Both the position numbers and the translations under genes were made by a program. Below, piece after piece: positions 35,305-50,408 of a stretch of DNA of 64,000 bases. The first letter of the stretch is position 1. Every line of letters starts with the position of its first letter. Location: contig LODT01000051.1 in NCBI GenBank assembly GCA_001606155.1, positions 372,001-436,000 on the forward strand, read 5' to 3'. A model generated the notes under the pieces. That model searched no databases and was not told the DNA's origin. It was given only the letters and a program-made list of their open reading frames with translations. The DNA is from Tieghemostelium lacteum (taxonomy: Eukaryota > Evosea > Eumycetozoa > Dictyosteliales > Raperosteliaceae).

Positions 35305-36972
35305 TTATTTATATTTACAATCATATTTTATCAATAAAATTACAATAGGTCTTTCAATAAACGGAATACACTGAATTTGTTTGTTAAATTTAAGTATATC
35401 CTCTAATTGTAAAAGTTGATCAGGCTGAATGACATTCAAGTTGGTACCAAATGGTAAATTTAGTTTTCTTAAAGTGTGATTATGTGTAAGAATATCAATG
35501 ATGATAGGTATTTTTTGATATTTTTGGTTATTACTAGTTTGTTCAATTTCTAGACATTCTAAAATTACGTTAGATTGAATTTGTTGAATTAGACTGCTTA
35601 GCGGTTCATCCTCTGGAATCTGTAAGTAGTTTATAAGTAAACTACGAAGATTAGGTAGATTTAAACCAATGAAACCTATACATTGTTTTACAGTTATGTT
35701 CATAAATTTCATAGATGTTACATTGACAAATCTATCATTAAAACAATCCATGTATTCTGAAATGTTAAAGAAAAGCAATTCAAGTGAATGAATACTTTTG
35801 AAAACCTCAGGACTTGTTAAAAGTTTTGTTGTAAATAGTCTGATGTATATTGACTCCCCATCTTTGGAAAGTGAAGGATCGGTAGTGTTCCTAAGTACCA
35901 ATGATTCTAGATTCTGGAATATTGGATACTTATGAAAATTCCTCTGATGGTTTAGTAAAAGTGATGTATTTATAGCTAGTGATCTAATGTTTAACTTAGA
36001 GATACTAGATAGAAAATCAAGGGTTGATTCTTGGTTAATCATTATATCAAGATCTAAATGTGTTATTCGATTGTTGTTCACTATAGGTTGTGTAACACCT
36101 TCATTGTGAATATCAGAATTAGGAATTACAATAATGATTGATTGTATTTTTACTAGACTTGAAATGAGTGTTGAAATGGTACTGTGTTTAATAGATGATC
36201 CTTCAGAACCATAGTACTCAAATGTTTCTATAGTCTTTGATATTTTACTTTGGCTAACTCTACCAAGTATATCGTCATGTATATTGAGATACCCTGGTTT
36301 GTCATGTAACCTTATATTACTACATTCTAGTTTCTTTACAACCTCTAAATTATCAATGAGTGTATATAGACTTTCCAATGATGATATAGTCATTGGAAAT
36401 ATTGTTAATGATGTAATGGATCTATAAGCTCTACCACTACTTGGAAATTTGTAAGTTGGAGGTGCATTAATTAGATACAACCACACAATATCGTATTGGA
36501 AAATGTCATCATTGGAATACACAGAATCAAAACATGATACAGACACAATCAATTCTATTTGTTTCCTGGTACACATATTCAGGTTCTTAAAACCACATGG
36601 CTCTTTACCCACAACCACAGTCAAATATTTTAAATTTTGAAAATTCTCTATATCTACACTATGTATTTGTTTACAAAAGATACTGGATACCTTGTCAACA
36701 ATATCAGGTGTGATGATATCTTTCCAATTAGGTTTTTCTGTGTTAATATATATCTCAAACTGAATATCAGATCTCAGTAGAGTGTCAAGTATCTTCTTTG
36801 TGGTACCAACTACATTTTCATTAAAATATAGTTTTGGTAATATACACTTATTCCATTGCTTGGATATCAATGGAAACTTTTTACAACAATAGGTGAAATG
36901 TTCAAGACCGCCAACAAAATTTAAAACATAATCTAAGATCTTTACTATCAAGTGGTGAGAGATATTTAACAT
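35305..36972 (-). CDS. F-box/LRR-like family protein
   Basis: Single exon, 555 residues from ATG at 36972 (the frame opens a few codons earlier at a TTG). The N-terminus ISHHLIVKILDYVLNFVGGL and KFPLISKQWNKCILPKLYF is the family's F-box-like signature; irregular leucine-rich repeats fill the rest (LESLYTLIDNLEVVKKLECS, NLESLVLRNTTDP, LRSLLINYLQIP). It is more diverged from the A1-A3 cluster than these are from each other. Its role, probably protein-protein recognition, is inferred. It ends 99 bases from the 3' end of the Sib-like gene, tail-to-tail. Confidence 0.72.
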   Translation of the reverse strand: MLNISHHLIVKILDYVLNFVGGLEHFTYCCKKFPLISKQWNKCILPKLYFNENVVGTTKKILDTLLRSDIQFEIYINTEKPNWKDIITPDIVDKVSSIFCKQIHSVDIENFQNLKYLTVVVGKEPCGFKNLNMCTRKQIELIVSVSCFDSVYSNDDIFQYDIVWLYLINAPPTYKFPSSGRAYRSITSLTIFPMTISSLESLYTLIDNLEVVKKLECSNIRLHDKPGYLNIHDDILGRVSQSKISKTIETFEYYGSEGSSIKHSTISTLISSLVKIQSIIIVIPNSDIHNEGVTQPIVNNNRITHLDLDIMINQESTLDFLSSISKLNIRSLAINTSLLLNHQRNFHKYPIFQNLESLVLRNTTDPSLSKDGESIYIRLFTTKLLTSPEVFKSIHSLELLFFNISEYMDCFNDRFVNVTSMKFMNITVKQCIGFIGLNLPNLRSLLINYLQIPEDEPLSSLIQQIQSNVILECLEIEQTSNNQKYQKIPIIIDILTHNHTLRKLNLPFGTNLNVIQPDQLLQLEDILKFNKQIQCIPFIERPIVILLIKYDCKYK

Positions 36973-37665
36973 GTTAAACTGCAAATTGAAAATTTGAAAA
37001 ATGGATGTGTTGTGTCTTCACAAAAAAAAACCTAGAATTTCAGATAGATGTACAAATAGATATTTTGACAACCTTTCGGTAAAATTTACAAAGATAATTA
37101 TGTCACTATCCAAAAAACGACACGCAAATTAAATATCTCTATCTTTACTTGTTTCAATATTTTATAGTGTTGGTTGATTCTTTCAAATAATTATTGCAAA
37201 TTTAGAAAAATATTCGATCGATTTCTTTGCAAAAATTGGGTTTTTTATCCAAAGAAAATAAAAAAAATATAAAATTATTTCAAAGTATCAGTAAATGTGG
37301 GAAATTCACTATTTCCATCTTTTGATATGTGTCATCTTTGATTTGAAAAGGGGGTCAAAATAAATGTAAATTCTAGGTTTTTCATAAACATTTTAATATT
37401 CATTTCTTATACTACAAATACTTCACGAACAGTAAAGATTTTTTTCATAATCAAACAGATATTTCAAAAAAAAAAAACCCCAATTTTCTTTGATTAATTT
37501 GAATAAATACAAAGTCTTTCGATTTTTTCATCACTGTTAGATATCATTTTCCCACCACCCCTCATCTTTTCTATCATTAAAGTGATAGAAAAATAGTAGT
37601 AAAATCTTTACTTTTTTATATATATATAAACATCAAAATATTTTTAATGTATTAAACACAAGAAA
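36973..37665. promoter_or_regulatory. Divergent promoter region
   Basis: About 690 bases between the F-box-like gene (minus) and the VPS9 gene (plus). It is AT-rich with A and T runs and a CA/C-rich block CCCACCACCCCTCA near 37552, about 110 bases before the VPS9 start, followed by a TATATATATA stretch at 37618-37628 that may be the core promoter. No gene is visible. Confidence 0.4.
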
Positions 37666-40600
37666 ATGGTGAAATCAATGAGTGCTATTAATGTTAGTAC
37701 TACTTCATCATCAGGAGGTTCAAATTTGTCAATGGATTTATTTGAAACAGTGGACCAATTTATAGTAATTCAAGATAAAAAATCATTTTTATCCAATAAT
37801 AGCCCACCATTGCAAAAAAATAGTCACCCCACAACCACTACTTCTACAAATAGCAATAATGGTAGTAATCTTAGTAGCAATGGGTTACCGGAAAACCATA
37901 TATCATCCAGTAAAAGTTATTCATCTTCGACTTTGGATGTATTAAATTCACTTATAGATTTTGAATCACCATCATCATTCTATAAATCCAAACCATCTTC
38001 TTTGGAGAATTTGGATCAACAACAGCAACAGCAACAACAACAACAGCCAAATAGTACAACATTTGAAGATTTATCTATACTTGAACATCCAAAGAGAGAC
38101 CATTCAATTGAGAAAATTAAAAAATTAGATAATCAGGATATTGATAAGACGAATATCCTAGATAATAATACTGATGATATTGATTCTCTCATTATGGATA
38201 TTGATAATTTGGTTGTTGATTTGGGTGACATTGAAAATGATTTAAGAAATTCAAGAAAAGATCTAAGATCCCTGATGCTACCTAGAAATGTTGGATCACT
38301 TTTAGAAGAAGCCGTTAAAAGTGGTGATGATTCTTCACTATACTCTGTACAAACACTTCCAAATAAAAGATCAATACCATTTACAAAACCATCTATATCT
38401 TCAATGATATTTACAAAAGATCAACAACAAGATGATCAGCCTCAACATCAACAGCAAAAAGAAGAAAATGAAATTAAAGATGAATTGGATTTTGAATTAG
38501 AAAAAGACTATACACTAAAAGAGATTGAAAATTTAATTAAAATATCAACTCTTAATATAAATCAACATCTTGAACAGCAAAATCAACTACAAAAGCAAAA
38601 AAAGAAATTGGAAAAACAAAAACTAAAGGAACAACTACAAAAGGAAAAAGAAAGTACTATTATAACACCTCCATTACCATCCATGCCAAATTTAGAGTCA
38701 CATAGACCTTTACAAGAGAGTAATAGTTCTGATTCATTACAAAGTTCAACATCACCTAGATTACAAGGTAATAATAATAATAATAGTAATTACACACCAA
38801 CTACCACAACAACAAGCCCAAACTCCAATTCATGTACAGCTAAATGGACTTATGGAGCAGCTAGAAAGTCATTGACACAGAGTGGAAGTGGTAGTCCAAG
38901 TCCTACATTATCACCAACTAGTTTATCACCACCAGGATCACCAGTGATACAAACTACTACCAGACAACACATTTGGAGAAAATCACAATCTACAAGTCAC
39001 CATCCAAGATCATCTACAGATCCTTCATCATTAAATACATTTGATCGTAAATCTATCATAAATCTTGAACCTATAAATCCAAATAACAACAATATCAATG
39101 ATATGGATAAATCAACTAAACATAGATCAACATTTCCAGGCTCATTGGACGAGATTAAGAACCAAAACGATGGATCTCATATCATATCACCACCAGTATT
39201 AACAAGATCAACTATTACCACTAAATTCAGAGGTCATTTAGCACCACTTTTAACCTTTGATTCGAATACTATGGAATACTCCATTATGGATCCAAAAAAA
39301 CAAAAAATTGATTTAGAAAATCAAACTAAAATCAATAGAGTATGTACATACCCCAACATTCCTTATTAAATGTGAAATATTTTACAATTTACTAATATTT
39401 ATTTAAAGTTAAAAGAATTATTGAAAAATTATAGAAATAAGATTATATCATTGATTAATAAGATATCAAAGGTTAATGAAGATCTTCAGAGAGTAAAGAA
39501 TGGTTACATTTTGAAATTTGAAAAGAGAAATAAATTCTATTTGGCAGATCATCAATTCCACCTTAGTACACTGTATAGAGAGTATTACAGTGTAAAGATA
39601 CTGTCCATTGACCTCAACCAACAACTTGGTAAAGAAAGAATGGAATTCCTAAAATCCAAGTTAATACACATTGGTTCTTTAATTACAGTTCTAAAGAATT
39701 ACAATCAAGATAAATCTCAAAATATCATTGTCTATTCCAGTTTTTTCCTAAAAACCAATGAACTTTTAAATCCAAATATATCAATTCTATCAAAAATTAG
39801 AAAGTTAAAAGTATGTAAAATATTTTGAGAAATAGTCATGTAAATATACTAATTTAATTTTATTTTAAATTTAAGTTATTAAGTATTAAAGAAAAATTAT
39901 TGAAATCTAATTATAAGGTATTTATGGAAAATAATTATTATAATTCTACAATCGAGAAGAGAGCTAGAAAGTTGTTTGATATAATTTCAAGAGGGAAGTT
40001 ACATAAAGAGTTTAAGCATTACTATCCATGGGATGAAAACCATGAAATACAAATGGAGTTGTCTACCCTATTATGGGATTCTAGATTTAAAGAGGGTAAG
40101 CAAATTCACCATCTAATCAATATCATCAGTGACGATTGTACAGGTCCAAAGAATATCAAAGCCATTGATATTGAAATTTTTATTGAAAAGTTTTGTGAAA
40201 AGTTGATTGAAACCTATAACCTCAATGCACCACCACCTTTACCTAGTGGCACTGTGGTTATAAATAACACACTAAAGAGTAGTAATGCACTGTTGTCAAG
40301 TTCTAATACTATAGTTCCTCCTCCAAGTCACATTTCAACTCAACCTCTACAATCACCACACCAAATCACATTGGAGAATATCGAGGCTATATCATCTCTT
40401 CCTACTCCTCCATCCACTATGCCCCATGCCATATCAGTAAGTGGTAACAATGTGATTACTCAGGTTGAAATCTCTCCACAAGATCTTGTATCTTCAACCT
40501 CATCCACAACCCAAATCTATCATTTACTATCCCAACTCTTTAAGAGAATATTCTATCCTGAGATCTACCATCTTATGAAAATCATCATTAGTAAAGAAAC

Positions 40601-41264
40601 AGGAGGAGTCACATTAAAATATGATTATGACCTTGTAGACAAGATTAACCAGTGCCATAACCTCGATCTCCAAGACCTCAATCTAATGCCAACAGATTTC
40701 CCATCACTCTCAGTTGACCAGCTTAAACATCACTTCCAAGGACCTATATCCACCCTGAATGAACTCAATTTCCACGTGGTACCTATCGACCTTGTATACA
40801 CAATACAACAGACATTGTCATCAATCTACAATACCTGTATCGGAATACTAAACAACAAAGAACAGATATCTAACCCCCCACCACCAAAATCTCCAATCAA
40901 AAAATCATCAAAATCATTCCACATTAAAAATGATGGATCCAGATTAAAAACTGGTTCATTTATAGGTAAAGATCAGTATCTTTCATTTGAGCAAACATCA
41001 GACGAAGAGTCTATTGAAAAACCACATAAACCACAACAACAACAGAACCACCATCACATAGAACGTAAACCACCAGTATCATTAAGTGCTGATGATCTAT
41101 TCCCATTGTTAATCTATGTATTGATGAACTCTGATGTCATTGGATTCTCCAAATGCATTGTAACCATTATAGAACAATTCTCAAGTGAATTGGAATTAAA
41201 TGGTGAATTTGGATGGTGTTCAGTTTCTTTTCAAGCTGCCATATCTCACTTGAATCAACTTTGA
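37666..41264 (+). CDS. VPS9-domain Rab guanine-nucleotide exchange factor
   Basis: Exons 37666-39339, 39409-39810 and 39876-41264, both junctions in phase 0; 1154 residues. The first 560 residues are low-complexity (poly-Gln, Ser/Thr, Pro) with short coiled-coil segments. The second half has the helical bundle and VPS9 domain: YPWDENHEIQMELSTLLWDS, then the catalytic C-terminus SADDLFPLLIYVLMNSDVIG ... GEFGWCSVSFQAAISHL, where the Asp of the DDLFPLL helix and the E-x-G-[WY]-x-x-x-x-F motif are the family's contact elements. VPS9 proteins activate Rab5-family GTPases on endosomes. An unrelated Asn/Pro/His-rich insert splits the domain. The last 170 bases are copied as two relics further downstream, so this gene took part in the local tandem duplications. 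Confidence 0.85.
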
Positions 41265-41572
41265 AATTTTCCATAAACATTTCATTTTTATTTATTTAAA
41301 CATTAATATATTAATATAATATTTTGTTAAAGAATGTTGATAAAGTTTATTTCTGCTGATTAATCTTCCGCAATTGCATTTAATTCTCTCTTTACAATAC
41401 AATAGATGTATATCTTTATTTAACTCACACAATTTGAAAAGATGAACCAAAGGAAAAAGGTGAGAAATATGTTAAAAATAACTATCTATTATTCTTAACA
41501 AGTGTACACTTGGTGGATTCATATGTTAAAATAAATAAAAGTTTTTTGTTTAGTTTAATTGTTCATTGAAAA
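41265..41572. other. Spacer at the left edge of an inserted block
   Basis: 308 bases after the VPS9 stop. The first ~40 (to about 41305) match the sequence that follows the VPS9 remnants in the relics at 44.7 and 46.85 kb; the similarity then stops. I take about 41305-41310 as the left boundary of a 1.33-kb block absent from the duplicated copies. The rest is AT-rich without a recognised feature. Confidence 0.45.
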
Positions 41573-42343
41573 ATGAATACAAACAATAATAATCAACAAA
41601 CAACAACTACAACAACGACTAGCTCAACTAATATTAAAACACAGCAAATACCCAATGCTTTTACACTTACTGAAGGTACTACTGCTCAACAAATCATAGA
41701 TCACCTCAAAATTCCTGAGGGGGATGATAAATCAAATATTAGTAAATTTAACCTTAATGGTAGTTCACTATTGAATCCCGAAGTAACATTAGATATTCTT
41801 ATTCGTACCCTTGGAATTTCTCTACCAACAGCTTTATCATTACTTGCACTTAGAACCACAACCCCTTCAGGTATGTAAATTAAACACCTATCACTAATTT
41901 AAAGACCTTTTGTTCATTGAAACTAATATATTTTGTAACATAACCTCAATTCAAACACCTTTTGACATTCAACTACACAATAGGTACACAAGTAGAGCAA
42001 GGTATGTAGATTGTTTTGGATACTTTTTATAGGATTTATGGTTAATATGAATTAACTTTTAGATTTAAGTTCACACAAAAGAAAGTTAGATGAAGAATAA
42101 GTATATATACACAGGGATAAATTATTAAAACTTGAAAAAGATATTTTAGAGTTACAAGAGGTACAGTTAACAAATGATATTAAAAATATGAATATCTCTA
42201 ACTATTCAACCAATCTTTTTTAGAAAAAAAACATTCCCAGGGAACCAAAAGAAGGTATATTTCAAGGTATTTTGGGGAAATTCAAAAAAAATAAAGATAA
42301 AGAAAATACAGGTTCAACAACAACATCAATTATATATATATAA
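41573..42343 (+). CDS. Small Thr/Asn-rich protein with predicted coiled coil, up to five exons
   Basis: Family not recognised. Exon 1 is 41573-41870 (poly-Thr start, then FTLTEGTTAQQIIDHLKIPE and ILIRTLGISLPTALSLLAL), exon 2 an 18-base micro-exon 41984-42001, exon 3 from 42063. If exon 3 runs on, a TAA at 42098 closes a 117-residue protein. If a 30-base intron (42085-42114, GTTAGA to CACAG) is removed, the frame continues through exons 42115-42160 and 42224-42343 to give 167 residues with SSHKRKDKLLKLEKDILELQ and a Lys-rich end. The long model joins in the correct phase at every step, which argues for it, but a 30-base intron would be very short. It sits within the inserted block between the VPS9 gene and F-box gene A1. 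Confidence 0.6.
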
Positions 42344-42443
42344 CTTAGAGACATAATTTTGTTCGGATTATTTAAGAACAGAATAACAGAATAAGATAAA
42401 TATTTGATTCATTTTATTTATATTCAGAATATAATTGATAAAA

Positions 42444-42677
42444 ATGAGAAAGGAAATTATAATTCAATTGGATAATTCCGAAATTGAAGACATAAATTTG
42501 GTTTCCAATGGAAAAGTTGAAGAGAAATTATCTAAAAGTGTTTATAACTTTCTTGAACAAGGTAGAAAACAATTGGAAAAGAGATTAGTTGAAAATCATG
42601 TAATTTATTGTATAAATACTGGTTTTGGTGGTAATCTTTTTAAAATTTTTTTGATTTTTTTGGTTTGGTTTAGTTAG
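42444..42677 (+). pseudogene. Truncated 5' end of a histidine/phenylalanine ammonia-lyase gene
   Basis: Starting at ATG 42444 the frame reads IIIQLDNSEIEDINLVSNG, then KSVYNFLEQGRKQLEKRLVE and NHVIYCINTGFGGN. This matches the N-terminal 60 residues of the aromatic amino-acid lyase family, ending in the V-Y-x-I-N-T-G-F-G loop that precedes the active site; the Gly usually found before INTGFG is Cys here. Directly after GGN (about 42633) similarity ends and sequence homologous to the upstream regions of F-box copies A2 and A3 begins. The catalytic ASG motif and all the rest are missing, so it cannot make an enzyme. A remnant carried in with the inserted block is the simplest reading. Confidence 0.75.
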
Positions 42678-42740
42678 TTGAACAACACATTTTTGATTTT
42701 TTTGATTTAGTTATCAACTACACAAAAGCAGGAATATAAA

Positions 42741-44435
42741 ATGACATTGTTACCAAATTATTTAATAGTTCAAATTTTAAGGAATTTAATAAATTTTTGT
42801 CATAGGATTAAATATTTAAATTCATTTTTGGTTAGATTTACATTGGTCAGTAAAGATTGGAATCAAAATGTAATACCTAAACTTCATTGTACAAATACAT
42901 TAAATTATGAAGATGGGATTGAACAGTGCTCAAAGAGGCAATTTCAGAGAATCATAAAGTCTGGTGTAACATTTGAATTATCATTTATACCCAATAGAAC
43001 AGACACAGAGGATGTAAAGTATTTGGTGAAAGATCTAACTACAAAGTTATCAGGTGAAAGACTTTATAGAAATTTTGATGATTTTCCAAAAATCAAGTTG
43101 ATAAAATTATCAGTATATAATGATCTATCAGGTTTAGAGTTTCTAGATCACCAATACCTCATTGACAAAGGTATTAATCTTGATATTTCTGCTATACCAG
43201 ATCCCAAAGATACCCCTACGTTTTGTAGGACTTTATTAACATTACCTAATATAATCACTCTGTTTTTAATGGATATTCAACATTGTTTGAAATTTACCAA
43301 AGATTTCCCAAGCATATCTACACTGACCAACTTGACACTCTTCACAATTACATTTACCACCATTGAAGATTTCTATGCAATCATAGATAATGCAACTAAA
43401 CTGAATTTTTTAGATATTGAAAAAATAGACTTTTCAAAGGTCATTTCAAACCCATATGATAAGATTATAGAGAGAATTGTAAATTCACCATCCTCTAAAA
43501 CCCTAAATAACCTAAATCTCGGAAATTCTCAAGGTTCAATTTCATATAGTTCTATTCTAATGCTTATACAATATCTAGTTAAACTAACAAGATTGTCATT
43601 GTTTTCTGAAAAGTTAATAGTTGATAGTTACAATCAACCAACATCATCTGGTAAGATTCAATATATGAGTTTAGAATTTGACCAAATTGATAGTCCTACT
43701 TTTGATATGCTAGATATTTTCAGTCATTTTTCATTACTATCGCTTTCAATCTCACCAGGAACATTGTATAACAACGATCTTACCAAAGATTTCTGTTCCA
43801 GACCAATATTTAGAGATCTTTCTACACTCACAATTACCAGGTTATTAAATTGCACTGAAAATGAAGATTTTTCAAAACAAGAATCTCTCACCACATATTT
43901 TATAAATAAGGTTATAAGTGCCAATATAAAGTCACTGACTAGCATGTATCTATCTGGTGTAAAGGATGATTCTCCATTCATTTTCAAAGAATTCAAAGAA
44001 TCTCTACAAAGAAATACATCACTGACGCATCTGAATTTCAATCATATCGATATTGATAATTGTATAGAATTTCTAGAAAATTCACCTCCAACTATTAGAA
44101 AAATACAAGTGAAAATATTAGACATGTTAACTAGTAGTTTCAGTCGACTTATAAAACCACTACAAAATCATAAATATCTTTTATCATTTGATGTCAATAG
44201 ATGTTCAGTTTCATGTGATATCATTCCATTGTATTTGGAAATACTTAAACACAACAAAACATTAACATCATTACAATTTCCAACATCATATTCTAAAGAT
44301 GTAGTCACACCTGAACAATTATCCGAACTAAAAATAATTCTAAATTCCAATGACCAGATTAATACAATTAGAACTAATAATGATGAATTCCTGGCTTTAT
44401 TAACTAAATATATGTGTAAAGATAATTGTTATTAA
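42741..44435 (+). CDS. F-box/LRR-like protein, tandem copy A1
   Basis: Single exon, 564 residues. F-box-like N-terminus LPNYLIVQILRNLINFCHRI and VSKDWNQNVIPKLHC; then irregular leucine-rich repeats to the C-terminus. It is nearly identical to A2 (44819) and A3 (46933). It differs from both in residues about 85-110 (FIPNRTDTEDVKYL, LSGERLYRNFDD), but shares the TSSGKIQYMSLEFDQIDSP and SFDVN-CSVSCDII segments with A3 only. The upstream sequence with TTTTTTTGA runs and AACTACACAAAAGCAGGAAT is kept in A2. The frame is intact. A role in SCF-type substrate recognition is inferred from the F-box-like start only. Confidence 0.78.
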   Translation: MTLLPNYLIVQILRNLINFCHRIKYLNSFLVRFTLVSKDWNQNVIPKLHCTNTLNYEDGIEQCSKRQFQRIIKSGVTFELSFIPNRTDTEDVKYLVKDLTTKLSGERLYRNFDDFPKIKLIKLSVYNDLSGLEFLDHQYLIDKGINLDISAIPDPKDTPTFCRTLLTLPNIITLFLMDIQHCLKFTKDFPSISTLTNLTLFTITFTTIEDFYAIIDNATKLNFLDIEKIDFSKVISNPYDKIIERIVNSPSSKTLNNLNLGNSQGSISYSSILMLIQYLVKLTRLSLFSEKLIVDSYNQPTSSGKIQYMSLEFDQIDSPTFDMLDIFSHFSLLSLSISPGTLYNNDLTKDFCSRPIFRDLSTLTITRLLNCTENEDFSKQESLTTYFINKVISANIKSLTSMYLSGVKDDSPFIFKEFKESLQRNTSLTHLNFNHIDIDNCIEFLENSPPTIRKIQVKILDMLTSSFSRLIKPLQNHKYLLSFDVNRCSVSCDIIPLYLEILKHNKTLTSLQFPTSYSKDVVTPEQLSELKIILNSNDQINTIRTNNDEFLALLTKYMCKDNCY

Positions 44436-44458
44436 ATAAATTTAAAACCACACATTGT

Positions 44459-44732
44459 TTATGAAAATACCTAATATAACTACAATAGAATTAAAAAGTT
44501 TCAATTAGTTTATAATTAAAACTAAATTAAATTTCAAGTATTTAAACTTAGATTTTGTAACTGAATTAGATGATCTATTCCCATCGTTAATCTTTGTATT
44601 GATGAATATATCATTGGTTCCTACAAATGAATTGTAAACATTCTAGAACAATTCTCAAGTGAATTTGGTTGATCTTTAGTTTCTTTTCAAGCTGCCATAT
44701 CTCACTTAAATCAACTTTGAAATTTTCCTTAA
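44459..44732 (+). pseudogene. Relic 1: B-like gene 5' part fused to VPS9 gene 3' end
   Basis: The left half (44459-44576) matches the 5' coding part of gene B around 48711-49009, lacking about 190 bases in the middle. The right half (44569-44732) matches the last 170 bases of the VPS9 gene (41091-41264) and its 3' flank. The halves overlap in GATGATCT, present at the corresponding place in both parents. The VPS9 frame is broken by several small changes, so this is decayed sequence. It lies about 90 bases upstream of F-box copy A2. Confidence 0.85.
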
Positions 44733-44818
44733 ATATTAGACTTTTATTTCTATAATCAAATTTTTTTGATTTTTTTTGATTTTTTTGGATATCAACTACA
44801 CAAAAGCAGGAATATAAA

Positions 44819-46510
44819 ATGACATTGTTACCAAATTATTTAATAATTCAAATTTTAAGGAATTTAATAAATTTTTGTGATGAGATTGAATATTTAAATT
44901 CATTTTTGGTTAGATTTACATTGGTCAGTAAAGATTGGAATCAAAATGTAATACCTAAACTTCATTGTATAAATACATTAAATTATGAAGATGGGATTGA
45001 ACAGTGTTCAAAGAGGCAATTTCAGAGAATCATAAAGTCTGGTGTAACATTTGAATTATCATTTAGACCCGACATAACAGGTTCAGAGGATATACAGTAT
45101 TTGGTGAAAGATCTAACTACAAAGCTATCAGTTAAAGGACTTAATAGAAATTTTGATGATTTTCCAAAAATCAAGTTGATAAATTTATCAGTGTATAATA
45201 ATCGATCAGGTCTAGAGTTTTTAGATCACCAATACTTCATTGACAAAGGTATTAATCTTGATATCTTTGCTCTACCAGATCCGGATGATTCCCCTACCAT
45301 TTGTAGGACTTTAATAAAATTACCGAATATAATCACTCTGTTTTTAATGGATATTCAACATTGTTTGAAATTTACCAAAGATTTCCCAAGTCTATCCACA
45401 CTGACCAACTTGACACTCTGCAAAATTACATTTACCACCATTGAAGATTTCTATGCAATCATAGATAATGCAACTAAACTAGATTTTTTAGATATTGAAA
45501 AAATAGACTTTTCAAAGGTCATTTCAAACCCATATGATAAGATTATAGAGAGAATTGTAAATTCACCATCTTCTAAAACCCTAGAAATACTAGGTCTCAT
45601 AAATTCTCAAGGTTCAATTTCATATAGTTCTATTCTAATGCTTATACAATATCTAGTTAAAGTAACTAAATTATCATTGTTTTCTGGAAAGTTAATAGTT
45701 GATAGTTACAATCAACCAAGATTACCAGGTAAGATTCAACATATGAGTTTGGAATTTGACCAAATTGATAGACCTACTTTTGGAATGCTAGATATTTTCA
45801 GTCATTTTCCATTAGTATCGCTTTCAATCTCACCAAGAACATTGCACAATATCGATCTTACCAAAGATTTCTGTTCCAGACCAATATTTAGAGATCTTTC
45901 TACACTCACAATTACAAAGCTATTAAATTGCACTGAAAATGAAGATTTATCAAAACAAGAATCTCTCACCACATATTTTATAAATAAGGTTATAAGTGCC
46001 AATATAAAGTCACTGACTAGCATGTATCTATCTGGTGTAAAGGATGATTCTCCATTCATTTTCAAAGAATTCAAAGAATCTCTACAAAGAAATACATCAC
46101 TGACACATCTGAATATCAATCATATTGATATTGATAATTGTATAGAATTTCTAGAAAATTCACCTCCAACTATTAGAAAAATACAGTTGAAAATGTTAGA
46201 CCTGGGTAAAGGGAGTTACAGGTCACTTATAAAACCACTACAAAAGCATAAATATCTTTTATCATTTGATATCAAATGTTGGTTAATTTCATATGGTATG
46301 ATTCCATTGTATTTGGAAATACTTAAACACAACAAAACATTAACCTCATTACAATTTCCAACAACTTTGAGAGATGTAGTCACACCTGAACAATTATCCG
46401 AATTAAAAAGCATTCTAAATTCCAATGACCAGATTAATACAATTAGAACTAATAATGATGATATCCTGGCTTTATTAACTAAATATATGTGTAAAGGTAA
46501 TCGTTATTAA
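44819..46510 (+). CDS. F-box/LRR-like protein, tandem copy A2
   Basis: Single exon, 563 residues, one codon shorter than A1 and A3. The N-terminus LPNYLIIQILRNLINFCDEI is shared with A3. Distinctive stretches are KLSLFSGKLIVDSYNQPRLP and SFDIKCWLISYGMIP, whereas SMYLSGVKDDSPFIFKEFKE is shared with A1 but not A3. The frame is open throughout and changes between copies include many synonymous or conservative ones, so it looks functional. Immediately upstream lie relic 1 and the same 30-base leader as A1. Confidence 0.78.
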   Translation: MTLLPNYLIIQILRNLINFCDEIEYLNSFLVRFTLVSKDWNQNVIPKLHCINTLNYEDGIEQCSKRQFQRIIKSGVTFELSFRPDITGSEDIQYLVKDLTTKLSVKGLNRNFDDFPKIKLINLSVYNNRSGLEFLDHQYFIDKGINLDIFALPDPDDSPTICRTLIKLPNIITLFLMDIQHCLKFTKDFPSLSTLTNLTLCKITFTTIEDFYAIIDNATKLDFLDIEKIDFSKVISNPYDKIIERIVNSPSSKTLEILGLINSQGSISYSSILMLIQYLVKVTKLSLFSGKLIVDSYNQPRLPGKIQHMSLEFDQIDRPTFGMLDIFSHFPLVSLSISPRTLHNIDLTKDFCSRPIFRDLSTLTITKLLNCTENEDLSKQESLTTYFINKVISANIKSLTSMYLSGVKDDSPFIFKEFKESLQRNTSLTHLNINHIDIDNCIEFLENSPPTIRKIQLKMLDLGKGSYRSLIKPLQKHKYLLSFDIKCWLISYGMIPLYLEILKHNKTLTSLQFPTTLRDVVTPEQLSELKSILNSNDQINTIRTNNDDILALLTKYMCKGNRY

Positions 46511-46566
46511 ATAAATTTAAAACCATAATAATTTATTGCATTTTTAAAAATCATTGTAAAACATTG

Positions 46567-46870
46567 TTTATGAAAATACCTATTATAACTAAAATAGAAT
46601 TGAAAAATTTCAATTAGATTTTAATTAAAACTAAAATTCTATTTCAAATATATTTAAATTTAAATTATGTAACTGAATTAGATGATCTATTCCCATCGTT
46701 AATCTTTGTATTGATGAATATGTCATTGGTTCCTACAAATGCATTGTAAACATTATAGAACAATTCTCAAGTGAATTGGAATTAAATGGGATAATCAGTT
46801 CTTTTCAAGCTGCCATATCTCACTTAAATCAACTTTGAAATTTTCCATAAACAATTTATTTTATTTATTA
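46567..46870 (+). pseudogene. Relic 2: B-like gene 5' part fused to VPS9 gene 3' end
   Basis: Same chimera as relic 1, with the same internal deletion in the B-like half and the same GATGATCT junction (46681-46688). The VPS9 half is slightly better kept (GAATTGGAATTAAATGG is present here, lost in relic 1), but it is also frame-broken. Similarity to the VPS9 3' flank continues to about 46870. It lies about 60 bases before copy A3. The shared deletion and junction mean the two relics descend from one event and were copied together with an A gene. Confidence 0.85.
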
Positions 46871-46932
46871 AAATATCAATTACCATAGCCAATCTTTTTA
46901 ATTTTTTTTGATTTTTTTGATTTGGATATCAA

Positions 46933-48627
46933 ATGACATTGTTACCAAATTATTTAATCATTCAAATTTTAAGGAATTTAATAAATTTTTGTGATAAAAT
47001 TGAATATTTAAATTCATTTTTGGTTAGATTTACATTGGTTAGTAAAGATTGGAATCAAAATGTAATACCTAAACTTCATTGTATAAATACATTAAATTAT
47101 GAAGATGGGATTGAACAGTGTTCAAAGAGGCAATTTCAGAGAATCATAAAGTCTGGTGTAACATTTGAATTATCATTTAGACCCGACATAACAGGTTCAG
47201 AGGATGTACAGTATTTGGTGAAAGATCTTACTACAAAATTATCAGTTCTAAGACTTACTAGAAATTTTGATGATTTTCCAAAAATCAAGTTGATAAATTT
47301 ATCAGTATATAATTGCCCATCAGGTCTAGAGTTTCTAGATCACCAATACCTCATTGACAAAGGTATTAATCTTGATATCTTTGTTCTACCAGATCTGGAT
47401 GATACCCCTACCATATGTCAGACTTTATTAACATTGCCGAATATAATCACTCTGTTTTTAATGGATATTCAACATTGTTTGAAATTTACCAAAGATTTCC
47501 CAAGTCTATCTACACTGACCAACTTGACACTCTTCACAATTACATTTACCACCATTGAAGATTTCTATGCAATCATAGATAATGCAACTAAACTGGATTT
47601 TTTAGATATTGAAAAAATAGACTTTTCAGAGTTTATTTTAAACCCATATGATAAGATTATAGAGAGAATTGTGAATTCACCTTGTTCTAAAACACTAGAA
47701 ACACTAGGTCTCACAAACTCTCAAGGTTCAATTTCGTATAGTTCTATTCTAATGCTTATACAATATCTAGTTAAACTAACAAGATTGTCATTGTTTTCTG
47801 AAAAGTTAATAGTTGATAGTTACAATCAACCAACATCATCTGGTAAGATTCAATATATGAGTTTAGAATTTGACCAAATTGATAGTCCTACTTTTGATAT
47901 GCTAGATATTTTCAGTCATTTTTCATTAGTATCGCTTTCAATCTCACCAGGAACATTGTGCAATCACGATCTTACCAAAGATTTATGTTCCAGACCAATA
48001 TTTAGAGATCTTTCTGCACTCACAATTACAAAGCTATTAAATTGCACTGAAAATGAAGATCTTTCAAAACAAGAATCTCTCACCACATATTTTATAAATA
48101 AGGTTATAAGTGCCAATATCAAGTCACTGATTAGCTTGAATATATCTTGTACAAAGAAAGATTCTCCTTTCATTTTCAAAGAATTCAAAGAATCACTACA
48201 AAGAAATACATCACTGACGCATCTGAATATCAATCATATTGATATTGATAATTGTATAGAATTTCTAGAAAATTCACCTCCAACTATTAGAAAAATACAA
48301 GTGATAATGTTAGACCTGGTAACTAGTAGTTTCAGACGAATTATAAAACCACTACAAAAGCATAAATATCTTTTATCATTTGATGTCAATAAATGTTCAG
48401 TTTCATGTGATATCATTCCATTGTATTTGGAAATACTTAAATACAACAAAACATTAACATCATTACAATTTCCAACATCATATTCTAAAGATGCAGTCAC
48501 ACCTGAACAATTATCCGAACTAAAAAGAATTCTAAATTCCAATGACCAGATTAATACAATTAGAACTAATAATGATGATATCCTGGCTTTATTACCTATA
48601 TATATGTGTAAAGGTAATCGTTATTAA
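46933..48627 (+). CDS. F-box/LRR-like protein, tandem copy A3
   Basis: Single exon, 564 residues. The N-terminal third follows A2 (FRPDITGSEDVQYLVKDL), the middle follows A1 (TSSGKIQYMSLEFDQIDSP), and residues about 395-415 are unique (SLISLNISCTKKDSPF). Near the C-terminus it again resembles A1. The upstream leader lacks the CTACACAAAAGCAGG segment present before A1 and A2, so expression may differ. The frame is intact; function inferred as for the family. Confidence 0.78.
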   Translation: MTLLPNYLIIQILRNLINFCDKIEYLNSFLVRFTLVSKDWNQNVIPKLHCINTLNYEDGIEQCSKRQFQRIIKSGVTFELSFRPDITGSEDVQYLVKDLTTKLSVLRLTRNFDDFPKIKLINLSVYNCPSGLEFLDHQYLIDKGINLDIFVLPDLDDTPTICQTLLTLPNIITLFLMDIQHCLKFTKDFPSLSTLTNLTLFTITFTTIEDFYAIIDNATKLDFLDIEKIDFSEFILNPYDKIIERIVNSPCSKTLETLGLTNSQGSISYSSILMLIQYLVKLTRLSLFSEKLIVDSYNQPTSSGKIQYMSLEFDQIDSPTFDMLDIFSHFSLVSLSISPGTLCNHDLTKDLCSRPIFRDLSALTITKLLNCTENEDLSKQESLTTYFINKVISANIKSLISLNISCTKKDSPFIFKEFKESLQRNTSLTHLNINHIDIDNCIEFLENSPPTIRKIQVIMLDLVTSSFRRIIKPLQKHKYLLSFDVNKCSVSCDIIPLYLEILKYNKTLTSLQFPTSYSKDAVTPEQLSELKRILNSNDQINTIRTNNDDILALLPIYMCKGNRY

Positions 48628-48707
48628 ATAAATTTAAAACCATCGTAATTTATAGAAATAAATTAGAATTTTTTTATATTTCATTTTTGAATCAATGTTT
48701 TATAAAT

Positions 48708-50408
48708 ATGAATATGAAAATACCGAACACAACAACGATAAATATTCTAAATAATATAGTTAATATACGTCATAATGAGAAAGTAGTTTATTTAAATTCT
48801 ATAGAGTATCTATATGCATTTATTAGAAAGTTTACTTTGATTTCAAAAGAGTGGAATGAAAAAGTTATCCCTAAACTCTGCCCTAGAAATCCATTTATAT
48901 TAGACAATTACAATAGAATTGAAAAGTCTCAATTAGAGTTTTTAATTAAATCTAAAATACAGTTTCAGGTATATTTAAACTTAAATATTGTAAATGAATT
49001 AGATGATCTGAAAACACTGATAAAAGATCGTGTCTCAACTCTACACCTTTCCACAGTTCCTAATCACTTTGTTGTCACAGGTTACCCTAACCTGAAATCA
49101 CTATTATTATCAATTTCAGAATCTGATCAGTTAGAGGATTTAGATGATAAAAATCTAGAGAAACATGGTATTAAACTAGATCTATCTCTGTCCCCTAGTG
49201 ACGGGTTGGTAGATTCAAGAATACATGAATATATATTCAATATGAAGGCTTTATCATCATTTCAACTATACGATTACCACAAGGATTTTATAGTCTTGCC
49301 CAATGCCCCATTTTATAAAACTTTAAAATCATTGTCATTGATATCAGTTTTCTTTGATGAATATAATCATCTAGAACAACTATTCAAAAATCTAGAGATT
49401 ACAGAAGAAATTTATATTTCATCATTATCATTTATATCCTATCCCGAGAATATGAATGAAATGTTACTAGATTGTTTATCCAATATCAAAATTACACCAA
49501 CTATTAGTAATCTGACTGTAGAGGGTGTTACTGCTACACCATGGTCTTCACTAATTAAATTATTTAATAGTCTGGTCAGTTTAAAGAAATTTTCAATGTC
49601 CACCGAATGTTTTGAACCTGATAGTGAAGAATTACTAATTTCTCAACAAACATTGGACTTATTAAGCTTGGTTACATTTGAGCCCAGTACATGTATACTC
49701 CCAAAAATTAGTAGTCTAAAATGTAAATCATTAATCGTGTCCGACTTGTCAAATCCAGATATGATATTAGATGATTTATTCCCATCACCTCTACTTTCAA
49801 ATCTAATGGAATTTAAATTTCATAATTTAAATCAGTTTAACAGTTATTCGCATAATCTTTCGGAATTTTTCAATAGTTTGATTAGGTTTAATTCTGAAAA
49901 TCTAAAGTCCATAGAGGTTGAACTTGGGACCAATTTTTATGGCAACGCTTTAGTAGAGTCAATATCAAAAAATTCTAATCTAAAATGGCTTACTATCATA
50001 TCAAGTGATATAAATAGTCTGGTAAATCTATTGAAATCCTTGCCTCTTAGTATAGAGTATATTAAAGTTAATGTACTTCAAGTTCAAAAATTTGAAGATT
50101 TTAATACAATAGTACCACATTTACAATGCAACCAAAGTTTAAAGGTTTTTGTTATTGGTGATATTCAACCATCTATATTAACTAATAATATATCATATAT
50201 GCCAATGTGCATTGAAATACTAAGCAAGAATAACCATCTATCAACACTGATATTACCCTATTCCACTATGAGTACAGCAACCAATTCTGATTTGGAATCC
50301 TTAGAACACATTCTAAAATCAAATACGAACCTTTCCCATCTATATTCAAGTGATAAACGAGTGGTCTCACTAATGAATAAATATCTGTGTCTTGGTGGAC
50401 ACGAATAA
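48708..50408 (+). CDS. F-box/LRR-like protein, diverged copy B
   Basis: Single exon, 566 residues from ATG 48708 (a second Met follows at 48714). The F-box-like start is TTINILNNIVNIRHNEKVVY and LISKEWNEKVIPKLCP; leucine-rich repeats follow (LKSLLLSISESDQLEDLDDK, SLKKFSMSTECFEPDSEE). It is clearly paralogous to A1-A3 but much diverged. It is the parent type of the left halves of both relics, which match its codons for residues about 80-100. It starts only 80 bases after A3, so the genes are packed head-to-tail. Confidence 0.75.
   Translation: MNMKIPNTTTINILNNIVNIRHNEKVVYLNSIEYLYAFIRKFTLISKEWNEKVIPKLCPRNPFILDNYNRIEKSQLEFLIKSKIQFQVYLNLNIVNELDDLKTLIKDRVSTLHLSTVPNHFVVTGYPNLKSLLLSISESDQLEDLDDKNLEKHGIKLDLSLSPSDGLVDSRIHEYIFNMKALSSFQLYDYHKDFIVLPNAPFYKTLKSLSLISVFFDEYNHLEQLFKNLEITEEIYISSLSFISYPENMNEMLLDCLSNIKITPTISNLTVEGVTATPWSSLIKLFNSLVSLKKFSMSTECFEPDSEELLISQQTLDLLSLVTFEPSTCILPKISSLKCKSLIVSDLSNPDMILDDLFPSPLLSNLMEFKFHNLNQFNSYSHNLSEFFNSLIRFNSENLKSIEVELGTNFYGNALVESISKNSNLKWLTIISSDINSLVNLLKSLPLSIEYIKVNVLQVQKFEDFNTIVPHLQCNQSLKVFVIGDIQPSILTNNISYMPMCIEILSKNNHLSTLILPYSTMSTATNSDLESLEHILKSNTNLSHLYSSDKRVVSLMNKYLCLGGHE

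Follow-up and report, generated by a model that had tools for sequence, protein, structure and literature searches.

How multi-copy gene families have expanded is often deduced from copy counts only. In the 64,000-nucleotide stretch of DNA analyzed here (the window), three near-identical genes (A1, A2, and A3) stand in tandem with two short degenerate stretches between them, and the question is by which events, and in which order, one A gene became three.

Organization of the array

The array currently runs in the order VPS9, insert, A1, relic 1, A2, relic 2, A3, B (Table 1). The two relics lie between duplicated A copies, and each carries the 5' part of the downstream gene B and the 3' part of the upstream VPS9 gene on the same strand. 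The first-pass annotation had located the relics correctly (44459-44732 and 46567-46870), but its outer ends were only approximate and have been replaced by those given here.

Table 1. Features of the array (positions in the window)
Feature	Position	Strand	Evidence and remarks
VPS9-domain gene, last open frame (upstream parent)	39900..41264	+	ORF; Pfam VPS9, E 5.9e-12, 46.3 bits (above the cutoff of 27 bits)
VPS9 3' segment copied into both relics	41091..41307	+	blastn; starts with the octamer GATGATCT at 41091-41098
Younger insert, VPS9-A1 gap	41308..42635 (ends approximate)	.	Own-genome search, alignments
Gene A1, F-box/LRR-like, 564 aa	42741..44435	+	ORF; 88% aa identity to A3
Relic 1	44460..44758	+	B 5' part 44460-44576 and VPS9 3' part 44569-44758, joined at GATGATCT; first 28 nt less certain
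Gene A2, 563 aa	44819..46510	+	ORF; 88% aa identity to A3
Relic 2	46569..46880	+	B 5' part 46569-46688 and VPS9 3' part 46681-46880, joined at GATGATCT; first 28 nt less certain
Gene A3, 564 aa	46933..48627	+	ORF
Gene B (downstream parent), family member	48708..50408	+	Octamer at 49002-49009; aa identity with A1 to A3, 27-28%
B 5' segment with copies in both relics	48713..49009	+	175 nt (~48740 to 48915) appear missing from both relics

The relics join B to VPS9 at an octamer

Searches by blastn within the window matched relic 1 to B (44478-44576 to 48906-49009; 85% identity) and to VPS9 (44569-44758 to 41091-41302; 79%), and relic 2 likewise to B (46587-46688 to 48906-49009; 85%) and to VPS9 (46681-46880 to 41091-41307; 85%). 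Local alignment scores against VPS9 were 219 for relic 1 and 278 for relic 2, and those against B were 124 and 127, respectively. For relics 1 and 2, the highest scores of shuffled sequences were 39 and 43 (VPS9) and 35 and 41 (B) with 200 mononucleotide shuffles each, and 36 and 41 (VPS9) and 45 and 37 (B) with 100 approximately dinucleotide-preserving shuffles each. Chance similarity of the relics to the parents is thus ruled out (best shuffle, 45; real scores, 124 to 278), and the earlier reading of the relics as the 5' part of B joined to the 3' end of VPS9, for which an alignment of both relics to both parents had been proposed as the check, is borne out.

In each relic, the B and VPS9 matches overlap by exactly 8 nt (44569-44576 in relic 1; 46681-46688 in relic 2), and this overlap is the octamer GATGATCT. 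In both parents, the octamer lies in frame and encodes Asp-Asp-Leu (DDL), in agreement with the first-pass annotation. Since the octamer is preceded by 96 B codons and, counting from it, 57 VPS9 codons lead to the stop, the fusion would, by its coordinates, have been in frame when formed.

A search of the genome (23.3 Mb; 43 contigs) with relic 1 returned both relics, the tail of VPS9, and the start of B, plus two short matches to the 3' end of the relic, namely, the leader of A1 and one place on contig C30, the latter to a T-rich stretch. A 33-nt probe extending from the octamer into the VPS9 side, with up to 3 mismatches allowed, was found at three places, i.e., the two relics (0 mismatches) and VPS9 (2 mismatches). 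Thus, neither the relic 1 search nor the probe found a further copy of the VPS9 tail in the 23.3-Mb genome. Nor did the genome yield another close copy of B, the next best match having 28% aa identity.

Probable common origin and decay of the relics

The long B matches of both relics begin at a single B position (48906). A further 28-nt match (relic 1, 44460-44487; relic 2, 46569-46596; B, 48713-48740) suggests that the relics also include the B start codon and that both lack the same 175 nt of B between the two matched stretches. In the comparison that gave this match, relic 1 was the reference for the stretches of relic 2 and B. The score of the match to the B start region was reached by 1 of 1,000 shuffles for relic 1 and by 10 of 1,000 for relic 2; global alignment by itself did not place it. 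The 175-nt deletion is thus an apparent one, being based on a short match of modest significance. Two small deletions, one of 4 nt (VPS9 part) and one of 2 nt (B part), are likewise common to the relics.

Substitutions relative to the parents that both relics have in common occur at 8 of 184 VPS9-part sites and at 7 of 93 B-part sites. Private changes in the VPS9 part number 15 for relic 1 and 3 for relic 2; those in the B part number 6 and 4, respectively. Divergence from the parents, which ranges from 9.5 to 13.7% overall, amounts to 19/200 and 26/190 sites for the VPS9 part and to 13/98 and 13/95 for the B part. Some of the common substitutions may be changes in the parents instead, but the frameshifting deletions cannot be, since the parental frames are open.

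These shared deletions and substitutions point to a single origin of the chimera with later copying: most likely, the chimera arose once, decayed, and was then copied. Different junctions in the two relics would have spoken against this earlier proposal; instead, both use the same octamer, which together with the shared deletions rules out independent formation. Stops in the three forward frames number 6, 15, and 9 for relic 1 and 6, 13, and 8 for relic 2, and the first stop in relic 1 comes 15 codons after the B-type ATG.

A proposed first duplication

We propose that the starting order was VPS9-A-B and that DNA from the VPS9 octamer to the B octamer was duplicated head to tail and joined at the 8-bp microhomology. 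The product would have been VPS9-A-[B5'/VPS9 3']-A-B, with a fusion in frame at birth that subsequently decayed through the apparent 175-nt deletion and small frameshifting indels. In both relic units, the sequence runs from the VPS9 tail into the leader of A without the later insert; the relic units thus keep the older VPS9-A spacer, which supports this starting order. The makeup of the chimera fits as well, since the geometry of a tandem duplication places the 5' end of the downstream gene before the 3' end of the upstream gene.

The last VPS9 frame and B have 97 maximal strings of at least 8 bp in common, and random breakpoints in the two genes fall on at least 8 bp of shared sequence with a frequency of 0.0004. 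Given this rarity, the microhomology was probably used in the first join. At the junction, the parents have 8 bp in common, with no extended homology at the breakpoints; this length is very short for homologous crossing-over and falls within the 5 to 10 bp of the yeast precedent, microhomology/microsatellite-induced replication (MMIR). Template switching or end joining is therefore likelier than crossing-over, the most likely route being template switching during replication or microhomology-mediated end joining between sister copies. The annotation's order, parents, and junction for this step are thus retained, but its illegitimate crossover is not.

The same final sequence would also have resulted from an initial duplication of the whole VPS9-A-B block, followed by a deletion that ran from the first B into the second VPS9, used the octamer, and left the chimera; 8 bp of microhomology fits such a deletion equally. 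Sequence alone cannot separate template switching, end joining, and a larger duplication followed by deletion. We nevertheless regard the block duplication as unlikely, because it takes two events where one suffices and because neither the additional VPS9 tail nor the additional B was found in the genome searches described above. Direct duplication between the octamers is preferred.

A proposed second duplication and probable exchange among the A copies

After the first duplication, an unequal exchange between the two ~1.7-kb A copies would have given A1-relic-A2-relic-A3, and the relics would then have decayed separately. Extended homology for such an exchange is at hand, as the A copies differ by 6.4 to 7.2% (pairwise DNA difference) over ~1.69 kb. 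The two relics differ at 38 of 307 sites (12%), almost as much as they differ from the parents, which suggests that the time between the two events was short.

The exchange point could have been expected to appear as a hybrid A copy with one switch point; instead, A1 to A3 consist of several alternating blocks. At the 165 sites where one of the three copies is odd, we counted 71 class switches (permutation mean, 109.5; sd, 6.0), and none of 20,000 permutations gave so low a count. Such a mosaic is most simply explained by gene conversion or repeated crossing-over among the A copies, although bursts of change in one copy could be a partial source of the clustering. The synonymous divergence speaks against the scheme in its simplest form: dS among the A copies was 0.093 to 0.109, and the values for A1-A3 (0.093 to 0.097) were lower than expected had these copies separated in the first duplication, which makes conversion a necessary addition. 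The flanks fit the scheme, with the 3' flank of A2 following that of A3 up to 48653. The second, homologous round of the first-pass annotation is plausible by homology, but its exchange point is hidden by the mosaic.

The exchange that appears to act on the adjoining A copies also lends some plausibility to a triplication in a single event, after which gene conversion between the relics spread the changes that they have in common. Common descent explains the shared deletions and substitutions more simply, and we consider the single triplication improbable. Two successive duplications, the second by unequal exchange, are the reading used below.

The A frames, in turn, appear to have been kept open by selection. 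Among the A copies, there were 0 to 1 indel events per 109 to 122 substitutions, compared with 4 per 38 between the relics; such scarcity would be unlikely otherwise (Poisson P, ~1e-5 and 4e-5, with 4/38 treated as exact). The dN/dS ratios were 0.59 to 0.76, and bootstrap intervals of dN-dS were below zero for A1-A3 and A2-A3 and included zero for A1-A2. Positive selection on A as a whole is unsupported by these ratios.

A probably younger insert between VPS9 and A1

Today, 1.48 kb separate the VPS9 stop from the A1 start, compared with 50 to 60 nt from the end of the matched VPS9 tail to the A start in the relic units (44758 to 44819; 46880 to 46933). The difference corresponds to an insert of ~1.3 kb (~41308-42635) that is absent from both relic units. 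Its first part (~41319-42325) is a fragment of a dispersed gene family, to which most of at least 51 matches in a search of the own genome belonged. The second part (42356-42635) is a 5' fragment of an aromatic amino acid lyase gene, an intact 532-aa copy of which lies on contig C42 (Pfam E, 3.1e-140); we take this lyase to be of the histidine ammonia-lyase type. The first-pass annotation did not mention the insert.

The lyase fragment differs from the intact gene at 9 of 256 sites (3.5%), less than the relics differ from their parents (9.5 to 13.7%), and the insert therefore looks younger than the relics. By the same comparison, the alternative that the insert predates the duplication and disappeared from the copies is disfavored. 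The composite of dispersed gene fragment and lyase 5' fragment would thus have entered between VPS9 and A1 at a later time.

Possible functions of the relics

A reading that is compatible with the duplication history, and not its alternative, holds that the relics are short functional genes or noncoding elements, e.g., promoters that A2 and A3 acquired from the tail of VPS9. One block of the VPS9 part (41225-41280) did change less than the rest (4/56 versus 23/128 sites), but the difference is not significant (Fisher P = 0.07), and special conservation of this block was dropped as a candidate. In relic 1, the block lies ~83 to 138 nt upstream of the A2 start. With their frames broken by the stops counted above, and with A1 still open despite having lost its proximity to the VPS9 tail through the insert, functional relics are very unlikely.

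A related scenario, to which we attach only slight credence, is that the VPS9 tail carries a putative promoter of A. Duplication from inside VPS9 would then have moved A with its own promoter, the relics would have been retained as the promoters that drive A2 and A3, and a different expression would be expected for A1, which the insert separates from that tail.

Protein nature of A and B

The Pfam F-box-like model scored below its cutoff in all three A copies (E, 0.43 for A1, 0.023 for A2, and 0.024 for A3), and no Pfam F-box match was found in B. At E 0.01, none of 16 family members matched the F-box domain model, and one of the 16 matched the LRR model of F-box proteins (E, 0.00047). A profile of the 16 members matched solved LRR proteins (best E, 2.4e-6).

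A predicted model of A3, built from 5 sequences (pLDDT, 77; pTM, 0.73), has N-terminal helices (residues 6-20, 23-36, and 38-43; pLDDT, ~66 to 74, with only 66 to 69 in the first 40 residues) followed by an alpha/beta repeat. This arrangement resembles that of the plant proteins D3, TIR1, and COI1, which, with another plant LRR-F-box ubiquitin ligase, made up the top seven Foldseek matches in the PDB (E, 2.4e-8 to 7.3e-7; TM-scores by query length, 0.27 to 0.46; rmsd, 8.7 to 13.8). LRR proteins without an F-box matched nearly as well (ribonuclease inhibitor; E, 8.1e-7). The profile matches and the model thus agree in predicting an LRR solenoid for the A family. In the model, A3 has an LRR-type fold and the F-box part is uncertain, and "F-box/LRR-like" appears to be a fair label for the A copies. 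They differ from F-box/LRR proteins, for which the Skp1 interactors of Dictyostelium described in the available part of PMC9485057 serve as a comparison, in their subthreshold F-box scores and low N-terminal pLDDT; a role as Skp1 partners is putative.

Other family loci and known systems

Family searches gave 66 and 47 matches, and loci were taken from 20 of each. Of the 42 loci with family frames, 5 belonged to this array and 15 repeated the same genes, leaving 22, mostly with flanks of ~1.5 kb (one, L025, is inside the window; L034 and L058 overlap). Partial, decayed family fragments lay beside intact copies in at least 4 of the 22 (L035, L055, L058, and L067). In the two of these that were read further, L055 and L067, no fusion to the 3' end of another gene on the same strand was recognized. 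In this limited test, family fragments occur elsewhere, and the chimeric kind was seen only in this array among the loci examined.

Chimeras formed by tandem duplication are already known, and the array is an unusually legible example of them. In Drosophila yakuba, 76 chimeras were reported among 1,116 tandem duplications in a population sample of 15 lines, 24 of the 76 with increased expression (PMC5460883, from the portion available). As in the cases described there, tandem duplication has here brought the 5' end of a gene together with the 3' end of a different gene; unlike them, the chimera here is old, decayed, and itself duplicated, so that two rounds can be placed in order. Segmental duplications by MMIR in yeast, as presented in the part of PMC2518615 consulted, arise by a replication template switch with junction microhomology of 5 to 10 bp and are prone to gene fusions. 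The array resembles them in the length of its junction microhomology and in the gene fusion at the junction. The yeast mechanism was shown genetically (Pol32 dependent and Rad52 independent; PMC2518615), whereas what the array shows is an 8-bp footprint.

Literature searches on F-box, dictyostelids, tandem duplication, chimeras, and microhomology found no description of the locus in the titles and abstract openings listed; they were run without locus names and do not establish its absence from print. The accessible part of one article (PMC8535579) contained no mention of F-box or tandem.

Implications

Taken together, the array is quite probably a record of two successive tandem duplications from VPS9-A-B, with subsequent exchange among the A copies and a later insertion. 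With respect to the first-pass annotation, the main inference on the duplication history is sound; the mechanism of the first step has changed, and the insert and the A exchange have been added.

The two relics between three near-identical A copies record how one copy became three. Within ~9 kb, the array presents the founding breakpoint and its microhomology, a decaying fusion relic that helps to order the steps, a later insert, and exchange among the copies that were kept. It thus illustrates on a small scale how an F-box/LRR-like family expands in an apparent social amoeba, and it makes a clear prediction for related genomes.

The insert between the VPS9-domain gene and A1, the first of three tandem F-box/LRR-like copies (A1 to A3), contains two gene fragments. 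Within the dispersed-family fragment, the part at about 41870-42022 is the one that recurs most often; an apparent member of that family lies in two frames on the minus strand of another locus (L060, 1443-1778 and 215-1270). The lyase fragment matches C42:711147-711428 of the same genome at 93% identity, the site of an intact aromatic amino acid lyase gene.

Features in the window and at loci elsewhere in the genome (L, local coordinates)
Feature	Location	Strand	Remark
A/B family member upstream of VPS9	window 35305-36984	minus	26-27% identity to A3
Dispersed gene family, fragment	window 41319-42325		many places in genome
Aromatic amino acid lyase gene, 5' fragment	window 42356-42635		upstream region and first codons
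Decayed partial family copy	L035 117-452		adjoins intact copy
Decayed partial family copy	L055 612-731		adjoins intact copy
Decayed partial family copy	L058 2134-2509		adjoins intact copy
Decayed partial family copy	L067 1404-1652		adjoins intact copy

At the two loci read further (L055 and L067), no foreign gene part was recognisable in the decayed copies, which like those at L035 and L058 are of A/B family members.

The leaders of A1 and A2 share approximately 23 nt beside the start codon that are missing from the A3 leader (window 46905-46932 versus 44773-44818).
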